64,000 nucleotides of DNA, from positions 2,102,714 to 2,166,713 of the forward strand of contig NZ_CP132480.1 in assembly GCF_030770395.1 (NCBI RefSeq), written 5' to 3'. The notes beneath the pieces were generated by a model, which ran no database searches, was not told the origin of the DNA, and saw only the letters and a list, made by a program, of their open reading frames with translations. This DNA comes from Telluria beijingensis. Lineage in GTDB: Bacteria; Pseudomonadota; Gammaproteobacteria; Burkholderiales; Burkholderiaceae_D. Shown here piece after piece: positions 5,278 through 8,470 of the stretch. Each line of letters opens with the position of its first letter. Position 1 is the stretch's first letter. The position numbers were made by a program, and so were the translations under genes.

Positions 5278-6653
5278 GGCGCCGTCCGCTCCTTGTCGCG
5301 GCGCTGCCCCTGCTGTTGTCGGCCTGCGCGATGGCGCCGCAGCCGGCGCCGGAATCATCCTTGAGCGTGCCTGCAGCCTGGCGCACTGAGAGTACGGACG
5401 CCGCCACGGTCGATCGCGACTGGTGGCGCGCCTTCGGCGATCCGGTGCTCGATGGCCTGGTGCGGCGCGCGCTCGACAATAACGGTGACCTCAGGATTGC
5501 CCGCGCGCGCCTGCAGGAATACCAGGCGCGCATTCGTGTCGCCGACAGCGCGCGGCTGCCTGCATTGAACCTGTCATTGGGACCGACCCGCGCACGCGCC
5601 ATCGGCCCGTTCGGCGAACCGGTCGAGACCACCTCGGTCGTCGGCGCGGTGCAGGCCAGCTATGAGCTGGACCTGTTCGGGCGCGTGGCCGGCAGCGTCG
5701 CGGCGGCGCGCTTCGAGTCGCTGTCGCAGGAGGCGGCGTTGGACGCCACGGCGCTGGCGGTGGCGGCGAACACGGCATCCAGCTACCTGACCCTGCTGGG
5801 CCTGGACGCCCAACTGGCGCTGGCGCGCGCGACCCTGGAATCGCGCGAGCGCTCGTTCGAACTCGCCCGCCACCAGTTCGAGGTCGGCTACAGTTCGCGC
5901 CTGGAGATGTCGCAGGCCGAGGCCGAGCTGCACGCGACCGCCGCCACCGTCCCCCAGCTGGAACGCCAGATCGCGCTGCAGGAACAGGCGCTGAACCTGC
6001 TGCTGGGCGCCAGTCCCGGCCCGGTGGCGCGGGGCGCCGATTTGATGGCCTTGCGCGAGCCGCGGCCCGCGCCGGGGCTGCCGTCCGAACTGCTGCGCCG
6101 GCGGCCCGACATCGCCCAGGCCGAACGGCTGGTGGCGGCCAGCGACGCCAGCCTGGCAGTGGCGCGCGACGCGCTGCTGCCGTCGATCCGCCTGACGGCG
6201 TCACTGGGCGCGCAGGGACATAGCCTGTCGCAGTTGCTGCGTTCGCCGACCGAGTTGTGGAGCATCGGCGGCAGCGTGCTGGCGCCGCTGTTCGACGCGG
6301 GCCGGCTGCGCGCCCAGGCCGAGATCGCGGGCACGGTGCGCGACCGCGCGGTGTTCACCTATGAATCGGTGGTGCGCACGGCGTTCGCCGAGACCGAGAA
6401 TGCGCTGGCCTCGATCGAGGGGCTGCACCGGCAACTGGTCGAGGCCGAGGCGCGGCGGGTGGCGGCGAACGAAGTATTGCGGGTGGCGGGCAACCGCTAT
6501 CGCAACGGCTATGCCTCGTATCTCGAAGAACTCGACGCCCAGCGCACGGCCTTCACTGCCGACCTGAATGCGCTGCAGTTGCGCGCGAGCCTGCTGGCCG
6601 CCCACGTCGACCTGTACCGCGCGCTGGGCGGTGGGTGGAGGCCGGCGCCATGA
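5274..6653 (+). CDS. Outer-membrane efflux lipoprotein, NodT/OprM type
   Basis: Outer-membrane channel of the efflux pump, 459 aa. The N terminus is a lipoprotein signal with lipobox LSAC (Cys 18), followed by two repeated outer-membrane-efflux (OEP) domains; the pattern PDIAQAERLVAASDASLAVARDALLPSIRL in the second half is typical of NodT/OprM proteins (only part is needed to recognise it: RRPDIAQAERL). Translation starts at a GTG that overlaps the adaptor stop by 4 bp, indicating coupling. Like other NodT lipoproteins it should be acylated and sorted to the outer membrane. It completes the tripartite system and should work only with the two genes before it. Confidence 0.88.
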   Translation: MRRRPLLVAALPLLLSACAMAPQPAPESSLSVPAAWRTESTDAATVDRDWWRAFGDPVLDGLVRRALDNNGDLRIARARLQEYQARIRVADSARLPALNLSLGPTRARAIGPFGEPVETTSVVGAVQASYELDLFGRVAGSVAAARFESLSQEAALDATALAVAANTASSYLTLLGLDAQLALARATLESRERSFELARHQFEVGYSSRLEMSQAEAELHATAATVPQLERQIALQEQALNLLLGASPGPVARGADLMALREPRPAPGLPSELLRRRPDIAQAERLVAASDASLAVARDALLPSIRLTASLGAQGHSLSQLLRSPTELWSIGGSVLAPLFDAGRLRAQAEIAGTVRDRAVFTYESVVRTAFAETENALASIEGLHRQLVEAEARRVAANEVLRVAGNRYRNGYASYLEELDAQRTAFTADLNALQLRASLLAAHVDLYRALGGGWRPAP

Positions 6654-7258
6654 AGCGCGCGGTGTGCGATGTGTGCCTGCGCGCGCAGTCGGCGTGCATC
6701 TGCGGCTGGATCGTGCGGATCGAGGCGCAGGCCGGCTTGCTGGTGCTGCAGCATCCGCTGGAAGTCGGCAATGCCAAGAACAGTGCGCGGCTGCTGCACC
6801 TGAGCGTGGCGGGCAGCGCGCTGGCGGTGGGCGAGACCTTCGATGCGGCCGAACTGGATGGCTTGCTGCATGCGGACGGGCGCGTGCCGGTGCTGCTGTA
6901 TCCGGAGACGGCGGGGGACCAGAACCTGCCGCCGCCGCCCCATGTCGCGTTGTCGGCGGAGCGGGTGCGGCTGGTGCTGCTGGACGCCACCTGGCGCAAG
7001 AGCCGCAAGATGCTGTACCTGAATCCGGCCTTGCAGCGCCTGCCGCGGTTGGCGCTGAGCGATGTGGCGCCGTCGAACTACCGCATCCGCAAGGCGCATG
7101 CGCCGCATCAGTTGTCGAGCCTGGAGGCGGCGGCGCAGGCGCTGGGCCAGCTGGAAGGCGATGGCGAGCGCTACCGGCCGCTGCTGGATGCCTTCGATGG
7201 GTTTGTTTCGCAACAGGCGTCGTACGGCGCGCTTGTATTCGGTAATGGGGCGGCGTAA
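6650..7258 (+). CDS. DTW-domain protein, probable tRNA-uridine aminocarboxypropyltransferase
   Basis: 202-aa DTW-domain protein. The family (TapT/YfiP) transfers the aminocarboxypropyl group of SAM to a tRNA uridine to make acp3U. Visible are the N-terminal cysteine cluster CDVCLRAQSACICGW, likely metal-binding, the segment LQHPLEVGNAKNSARLL, and the signature LDATWRKSRKM about 110 residues in, where the name-giving D-T-W is DATW. Its ATG overlaps the TGA of the efflux lipoprotein (ATGA), so it may be translated from the same transcript, although the functions are unrelated. A LexA-type operator starts 3 bp after its stop and belongs to the next gene. Confidence 0.85.
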   Translation: MKRAVCDVCLRAQSACICGWIVRIEAQAGLLVLQHPLEVGNAKNSARLLHLSVAGSALAVGETFDAAELDGLLHADGRVPVLLYPETAGDQNLPPPPHVALSAERVRLVLLDATWRKSRKMLYLNPALQRLPRLALSDVAPSNYRIRKAHAPHQLSSLEAAAQALGQLEGDGERYRPLLDAFDGFVSQQASYGALVFGNGAA

Positions 7259-7260
7259 TA

Positions 7261-7280
7261 TACTGTATAAATATACAGTA
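7261..7280 (+). promoter_or_regulatory. LexA box (SOS operator)
   Basis: The sequence TACTGTATAAATATACAGTA has perfect 6-bp outer arms TACTGT/ACAGTA around eight A/T bases. It differs from the enterobacterial LexA consensus TACTGT(AT)4ACAGTA only within the A/T core. It ends 14 bp before the GTG of the radical SAM gene, where LexA would block the promoter or early transcription. Betaproteobacterial LexA recognises the same CTGT-N8-ACAG core. Very unlikely by chance in such GC-rich DNA. Confidence 0.88.
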
Positions 7281-7294
7281 TTGGAGCCGATCCC

Positions 7295-8470
7295 GTGGGC
7301 ACTATCGACAATCCAGTTATCCGGGAACCGTTTGACGATGGGCATATCGCCTTCGCACCATCTCCGCCGCCGTTGGCGAAAAAGGGCCGTGGAGCGGTGT
7401 CGAACTTGCAGGGCCGCTACGAGGTCAATGGCCGCGAGCGCTTTGACGACGGCTGGGTAGTCGATCACGATGCCATGCCGGCATTCAAGACCGTCGTCAC
7501 CGACGAGATCGCCAAGAGCATCCTATCGCGCAACAGTTCGCCAGACATCCCGTTCAGCGTTTCCTTGAATCCCTATCGCGGCTGCGAGCACGGCTGCATC
7601 TATTGTTTCGCGCGGCCGACGCACAGCTACCTGGGCCTGTCTCCGGGACTCGATTTCGAAAGCCGCCTGTTCGCCAAGGTCAACGCGCCCGAGTTATTGC
7701 GGCGCGAACTGGCAAAACCCGGCTACGTGCCAGAGCACATCGCTATCGGCGTCAACACCGATGCCTATCAACCCTGCGAGCGCGAGCGCAAGCTCACACG
7801 CGCGGTGCTCGAGGTGCTGGCCGAGTGCCGCCATCCGGCCGGCCTGATCACCAAGTCGTCGCTGATCGAGCGCGACATCGACATCCTGGCGCCGATGGCC
7901 GCCAATGGCCTGGCCTGTGCGGCGGTGACGCTCACCACGCTCGACGCCGAGATCTCGCGCACGCTGGAGCCGCGCGCCGCGGCCCCGATGCGGCGCCTGC
8001 GCACCATCCGCACGCTGGCCGATGCCGGCATCCCGGTGAGCGTCAGCGTGGCGCCGATCATCCCCTTCGTGACCGAACCCGAGATCGAGCGCATCCTCGA
8101 AGCGGCGCGCGATGCCGGCGCGGTCGGCGCGCATTACACGGTGCTGCGCCTGCCGCACGAGGTGAATCCGCTGTTCCAGGAATGGCTGCAGGCCCACTTC
8201 CCCGACCGTGCGCAGCGGGTGATGAACCGGATTCGCGAGATGCGGGGCGGGAAGGATTACGACAGCGATTTCGCGACCCGCATGAAAGGCGAGGGCGTGT
8301 GGGCCGACCTGATTCGCCAGCGCTTTGAAAAGGCGTCGCAGCGGCTCGGGTTCTCGGATTTGCGCGGGCGTTTCGGGCGGCTCGATGGTTCGCAGTTCAG
8401 GCGGCCACTGGTGGTGCCGCAGACGCTGAAGAGGGAGGGAAAGGGCGCTGGACAGCTGAATTTATTCTAG
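7295..8470 (+). CDS. PA0069-family radical SAM protein, predicted SOS-regulated
   Basis: Radical SAM enzyme of 391 aa, distantly like spore photoproduct lyase (SplB). The cluster-binding motif CEHGCIYC (CX3CX2C) lies near residues 97-104 in NPYRGCEHGCIYCFARPTH. The conserved family N terminus GRYEVNGRERFDDGW precedes it and a TIM-barrel-like region with SVSVAPIIPF follows. Translation starts at GTG with a GGAG Shine-Dalgarno 8 bp upstream. A near-consensus LexA box lies just before that. The last five residues, QLNLF, match the bacterial sliding-clamp-binding consensus. Together these point to a DNA-damage role, but no reaction has been assigned here from sequence. I recall PA0069 being listed among LexA-controlled genes of Pseudomonas aeruginosa; this should be verified. 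Confidence 0.88.
   Translation: MGTIDNPVIREPFDDGHIAFAPSPPPLAKKGRGAVSNLQGRYEVNGRERFDDGWVVDHDAMPAFKTVVTDEIAKSILSRNSSPDIPFSVSLNPYRGCEHGCIYCFARPTHSYLGLSPGLDFESRLFAKVNAPELLRRELAKPGYVPEHIAIGVNTDAYQPCERERKLTRAVLEVLAECRHPAGLITKSSLIERDIDILAPMAANGLACAAVTLTTLDAEISRTLEPRAAAPMRRLRTIRTLADAGIPVSVSVAPIIPFVTEPEIERILEAARDAGAVGAHYTVLRLPHEVNPLFQEWLQAHFPDRAQRVMNRIREMRGGKDYDSDFATRMKGEGVWADLIRQRFEKASQRLGFSDLRGRFGRLDGSQFRRPLVVPQTLKREGKGAGQLNLF
8453..8467 (+). other. Codons for C-terminal QLNLF clamp-binding-like motif
   Basis: The extreme C terminus of the radical SAM protein reads QLNLF, residues 387-391, followed by the stop. The consensus peptide for binding the beta sliding clamp is QL(S/D)LF, and such motifs commonly sit at flexible C termini of polymerases and repair proteins. 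Binding is inferred, not shown. Confidence 0.55.

Follow-up and report, generated by a model that had tools for sequence, protein, structure and literature searches.

Is a radical S-adenosylmethionine (SAM) enzyme part of the SOS response when its gene begins just behind a near-consensus LexA palindrome, and on what would such an enzyme act? The question is raised by a locus in a stretch of 64,000 nucleotides of Telluria beijingensis (hereafter the window, G000:C1:2102714-2166713 in a single-contig genome of 6.0 Mb), where a predicted LexA box precedes the gene of a PA0069-family radical SAM protein. Our findings suggest that this gene is very probably under LexA (SOS) control, as had been proposed in a first-pass annotation of the window, since the box ranks first in the genome, other boxes lie at lexA, two imuA genes, dnaE2, dinB, parE and ruvC, and the site recurs 5' of orthologous genes, with operator motifs that change between lineages. 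The features concerned are the following.

7261..7280, no strand assigned: LexA box TACTGTATAAATATACAGTA, recognized from the sequence, the best match in the genome and kept upstream of orthologues
7283..7286, + strand: GGAG, probable ribosome-binding site from the sequence, 8 bases 5' of the GTG
7295..8470, + strand: PA0069-family radical SAM gene, GTG start, 391 residues (NF033668; Radical_SAM PF04055; model pLDDT 87)
7583..7606, + strand: codons of C97-x3-C101-x2-C104, the [4Fe-4S] motif CEHGCIYC, from the sequence

The predicted box reads TACTGT-ATAAATAT-ACAGTA and is separated from the GTG at 7295 by 14 bases (7281-7294). Palindrome, spacing, GGAG and family are as first annotated; the 391-residue open reading frame scores 484.3 bits against the NCBIfam model NF033668, 'PA0069 family radical SAM protein', whose cut-off is 360, and its closest named protein match comes from Massilia timonae, with 93% identity.

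The operator and its rank in the genome

The bare core CTGT-N8-ACAG was rejected as evidence. The window has a single match where 0.5 would be expected, at least one match being present in 43 of 100 window shuffles, and genome-wide the core occurs at 34 sites, exactly as often as the reversed control (34), so that the core alone means little. The full operator was therefore scanned, allowing up to 3 mismatches to the 20-mer TACTGTATATATATACAGTA, the E. coli LexA consensus, and this gave 7 sites in the genome and none in the control. The site at 7261-7280 is the only one in 6 Mb with a single mismatch to that consensus, against 4 mismatches for the box of lexA itself (GACTGTATTTTTGTACAGTA, by count; the gene matches TIGR00498 with 236 bits) and 4 for that of recA (CACTGGATTTTTATACAGTA). 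The genome-wide ranking suggested in the first-pass annotation thus places it nearer to the consensus than the boxes of lexA, recA and imuA. Of the other six sites, two adjoin the two imuA copies and the remaining four lie next to parE, nadK and the genes of a DnaE2-type polymerase and a tyrosine recombinase, the profile matches of parE and dnaE2 scoring below their cut-offs because the fetched loci cut those genes. The core is also found at lexA, dinB, ruvC, a FAN1-like VRR-NUC protein and a radical SAM-UDG gene.

Some of these sites deserve a description of their own. The genome holds two imuA genes (L007 and L030), with a near-consensus LexA box at each. A tyrosine recombinase gene with a Phage_integrase domain (L015:305-1520, G000:C1:2556074) has a near-consensus box about 12 bases upstream. 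At L029:1500-1810 (G000:C1:5216705-5216739), two LexA-core sites 19 bases apart sit between a 70-residue open reading frame with no Pfam match and a divergent PAP2-family gene, and they mark a possible SOS gene. A second radical SAM cassette, formed by TIGR03916 and DUF4130-UDG (L349:701-3534, G000:C1:123000-127500), carries the LexA box TACTGTATGCCCATACAGTC. The TIGR03916 gene is present in 58 genomes; 20 congener loci were examined, and all 20 have a LexA box. SOS control of this pair is already in print for other groups.

Operators upstream of relatives

A PA0069-family match above the cut-off is present in 61 of 62 genus genomes. The presence of the box upstream of orthologues, a check also proposed with the first annotation, was borne out in the genus, where all of the 30 best-scoring of the 61 loci carry the strict core, with 1-4 mismatches to the 20-mer; among the 30 are the window's own locus (L062) and two apparently island-borne copies (L061 and L066). 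Beyond the genus, the strict core lies upstream in 34 of 97 loci sampled from the order (0.5 expected) and in 21 of 31 from the class (0.2 expected), and the looser CTGK-N8-MCAG in 46 of the 97 (3.6 expected). These expectations, like those below, come from single-base shuffles, and motif positions are counted from the profile match or from where the fetched stretch ends, not from start codons. The order set comprises most, not all, full-length matches and three from a wider list, genus members and fragments having been dropped. The class loci, and likewise 20 loci from elsewhere in the phylum, are a selection from the listed matches, the first 30 phylum loci are the best-scoring and hence come from related genomes, and the labels 'alpha' and 'gamma' of these sets derive from GTDB ranks.

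The letters of the operator differ between lineages. GTTC-N7-GTTC, which we take to be the alphaproteobacterial LexA motif, lies upstream in 46 of 50 loci from the rest of the phylum (0.64 expected). GAAC-N4-GTTC, presumably a motif of betaproteobacteria with a non-canonical LexA, was found in six of the 51 order members without a CTGK box (0.27 expected), all of genus g25, and five of these six sites occupy nearly the same place, -110 to -116 of the fetched stretch. TTAG-N6-TACTA, which we assume to be a Xanthomonas motif, precedes the gene in two members of genus g141, out of the ten class loci that lack the core. Among 80 named genomes, 44 have the beta-type motif and 15 the alpha-type, the bearers including Burkholderia, Paraburkholderia, Caballeronia, Cupriavidus plantarum, Variovorax, Herbaspirillum and Agrobacterium; the misses include Cupriavidus yeoncheonensis and Pseudoduganella danionis. 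Control stretches taken from inside the genes contained neither the beta- nor the alpha-type motif in any of 170 loci. Without selection for LexA control, it would be hard to account for an operator that persists while its sequence changes. A palindrome that arose by chance, or that belongs to another gene, is hardly credible here: the bare core is indeed as common as its control, but a site with 1 mismatch in 20 exists nowhere else in 6 Mb, it sits between two same-strand genes at 14 bases from a start, and it recurs in 30 of 30 congener loci.

The SOS or LexA link of a PA0069-type gene is already known in kind. As far as its available text goes, the study of Sanchez-Alberola et al. (2012; PMC3323433) placed 'splB', which is homologous to spore photoproduct lyase (SPL), under predicted LexA control in alpha- and betaproteobacteria, with two different LexA motifs involved, and spoke of SOS-controlled photoreactivation; its betaproteobacterial set comprised Burkholderia, Ralstonia, Cupriavidus and Variovorax. 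We infer from the genera concerned, not from the tables of that paper, that its 'splB' is the PA0069 family. Under the same genus names, the PA0069 loci collected here carry the strict core in Burkholderia (4/4), Cupriavidus (1/2) and Variovorax (3/4). The same text states that the trait was not observed in gammaproteobacteria, in a set that was apparently Vibrionaceae (PMC3323433), whereas 21 of 31 class relatives have the core here. Our literature search for PA0069 with LexA found no paper, and the PA0069 locus serves as a chromosome tag in one paper, in the portion of it available. The SOS-regulated gene in the P. aeruginosa SOS study is presumably PA0069. This gene of Pseudomonas aeruginosa, another organism, gave the family its name; a 2021 paper describes SplB/COG1533 as SOS-regulated, citing that study (Cirz et al., 2006). 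According to this citing paper (PMC8565304), the regulation was measured there; here it is only predicted. What is added, as far as literature searches show, is an argument from residues against SPL chemistry, the extension to relatives at the class level, which are probably gammaproteobacteria, and hints of two more types of operator.

Interrupted genes and islands

Partial PA0069 matches were found in 7 of the 62 congeners, and six of these were fetched (G001, G003, G008, G014, G016 and G057; loci L331-L342). In five (G003, G008, G014, G016 and G057) the gene is split by islands, the 5' piece ending in CEH and the 3' piece starting with GCIYC; the 3' piece of G001 and the second 3' piece of G016 begin a few codons earlier. 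G008, G057, G014 (whose ends are on different contigs) and G016 also have a full-length PA0069 gene, located between the pieces or next to them, and no full-length copy is among the matches listed for G003 and G048. The four full-length copies appear to be island-borne. Each has its own LexA box, with 2-4 mismatches, and the boxes of the five native 5' pieces are preserved as well. Three of these four copies group with L050 in one supported clade; the tree does not support a single origin of all four (3 changes).

As to their cargo, the island of G057 carries the Gabija genes GajA (967 bits) and GajB (801 bits). The left end of the G008 island (L332:4928-10337) holds three overlapping genes of 430, 640 and 733 residues, unnamed by NCBIfam, the first encoding a tyrosine recombinase (Phage_integrase), the second a protein with no Pfam or NCBIfam match and the third a protein with a weak Phage_integrase match; given this composition, a Tn7-like origin was dropped. 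In L329 (G108) and L330 (G157), two order members, the coding sequence is interrupted in frame, immediately ahead of the third cluster Cys, by an intein-like insert that bears a LAGLIDADG domain, its Pfam intein-splicing match being below the cut-off. Among phage records, 10 of 50,697 have partial PA0069 matches, none covering 80%; among plasmid records, 76 of 72,556 have a match, with coverage of 80% of the query or more in 26, and those 26 are nearly all larger than 0.8 Mb. The Rv2578c family of radical SAM proteins (NF038135), the second-best family for the window protein with 229 bits, below its cut-off of 430, is likewise an intein host (model NF038136) and, by the accessible part of one report, a phage integration target (PMC12924846).

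The enzyme, spore photoproduct lyase and the possible substrate

The nearest solved fold to the predicted structure is SPL, over residues 36-358, and a profile-profile comparison to SPL gave an E of 1.5e-9. Searched against the PDB, the protein sequence by itself gave no match up to E 1, and an 81-row profile gave 10 weak matches up to E 10, no SPL among them; the link to SPL therefore rests on the fold and on the profile-profile comparison. The SPL profile PF20903 had no match at E 0.001 in the Pfam scan and none in the T. beijingensis genome, and it matches two relatives (L330 and G481) weakly, below its cut-off. This profile was used because the NCBIfam scan is no test for SPL, the copy searched being without TIGR00620, which we take to be the SPL model.

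Residues were compared in an alignment of 81 rows, for which a pattern requiring NPY-x-GC and CxxxCxxC was passed by 164 of 170 loci and 80 of those were chosen; these two sets of columns are invariant by construction, because the pattern demanded them. The catalytic Cys of SPL (C141 Bs / C140 Gt) aligns with V153, by profile alignment and not by coordinates, and is Cys in 0 of 81 rows. In SPL this fourth Cys is essential, according to the text available of PMC3742179. The only invariant cysteines are three, all of them cluster ligands. The relay Tyr of SPL (Y99 Bs / Y98 Gt) is F105 here, Phe in 49 rows and Tyr in 32, and Y103, before the third Cys, matches SPL Y97 (Bs) / Y96 (Gt) and is kept in 81 of 81. 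Thus, the PA0069-family enzyme and SPL (SplB, PF20903; PDB 4FHC and others) have in common the fold, CxxxCxxC and the Tyr before the third Cys, and differ in the fourth catalytic Cys and, here and in 49 rows, in the relay Tyr. The resemblance to SPL noted in the first-pass annotation stands at the level of the fold and fails at two catalytic residues.

Building on the box, its rank and conservation, the fold and the missing cysteine, all read from sequence or model, we hypothesize that LexA would bind the palindrome at 7261-7280, just 5' of the start codon, and block the promoter. Upon DNA damage, RecA would be activated, LexA would cleave itself, and the radical SAM enzyme would be made. The enzyme would generate a 5'-deoxyadenosyl radical, which may attack damaged or unusual DNA bases, and, without the cysteine hydrogen donor of SPL, its final step or its substrate would be different. 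On balance, we consider DNA its probable substrate. More tentatively, and with less than even confidence, the PA0069 family may be a separate DNA-lesion-processing radical SAM class with the SPL fold and without the SPL Cys donor, whose value in the SOS response kept LexA control through at least two, perhaps four, operator types, and for which gene-breaking islands carry a LexA-controlled replacement.

Several points weigh against this interpretation. The fold and the regulon are the sole basis for DNA as substrate. Upstream regions without even the loose CTGK box number 51 of 97 in the order and 10 of 31 in the class. For the Rv2578c family, in the part of the paper available, the DNA-repair link is called speculative and a gene broken by phage entails no clear cost (PMC12924846). 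A promoter scan of 7100-7400 found no sigma-70 site. Finally, the 5' neighbour must be considered:

6650..7258, + strand: gene of a DTW-domain protein, 5' neighbour of the radical SAM gene (PF03942, 159.5 bits)

Its stop codon lies 2 bases 5' of the LexA box, on the same strand as the radical SAM gene, so that read-through is possible; this could bypass LexA and give expression a LexA-independent floor.

Alternatively, the enzyme could be SOS-controlled and have a target other than damaged DNA, such as a nucleotide, RNA or peptide, and could serve, for example, against phage or stress in the manner of viperin; we regard this as rather unlikely. In its favour, viperins (Z 13.3-14.4) and other radical SAM folds match the model with lower Z than SPL, copies ride on islands, one of them with Gabija genes, and the 5' neighbour encodes a DTW protein, which we take to act in tRNA modification. 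It is improbable that the enzyme is a true SPL, directly reversing 5-thyminyl-5,6-dihydrothymine, as the 2012 reading of 'splB' as a photoreactivation enzyme implies in the text available (PMC3323433). The nearest fold, the profile-profile match, the constant Y103 and the weak matches of PF20903 to L330 and G481 agree with such a role, but V153 stands at the essential Cys site, the relay Tyr is mostly Phe, and some genomes with a PA0069 gene encode real SPLs (L343-L345) as well. An alternative place for the Cys, as in SPL(Ca) C74, was not seen, since only the three cluster cysteines are invariant.

The residue comparison speaks against relying on the customary name 'splB, photolyase', and this makes the question of the repaired or modified target directly testable. 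The persistence of LexA-type sites through changes of operator motif is an argument that the SOS response profits from this enzyme. The box is a clean, conserved handle on a radical enzyme, and it tells when to look: after DNA damage.
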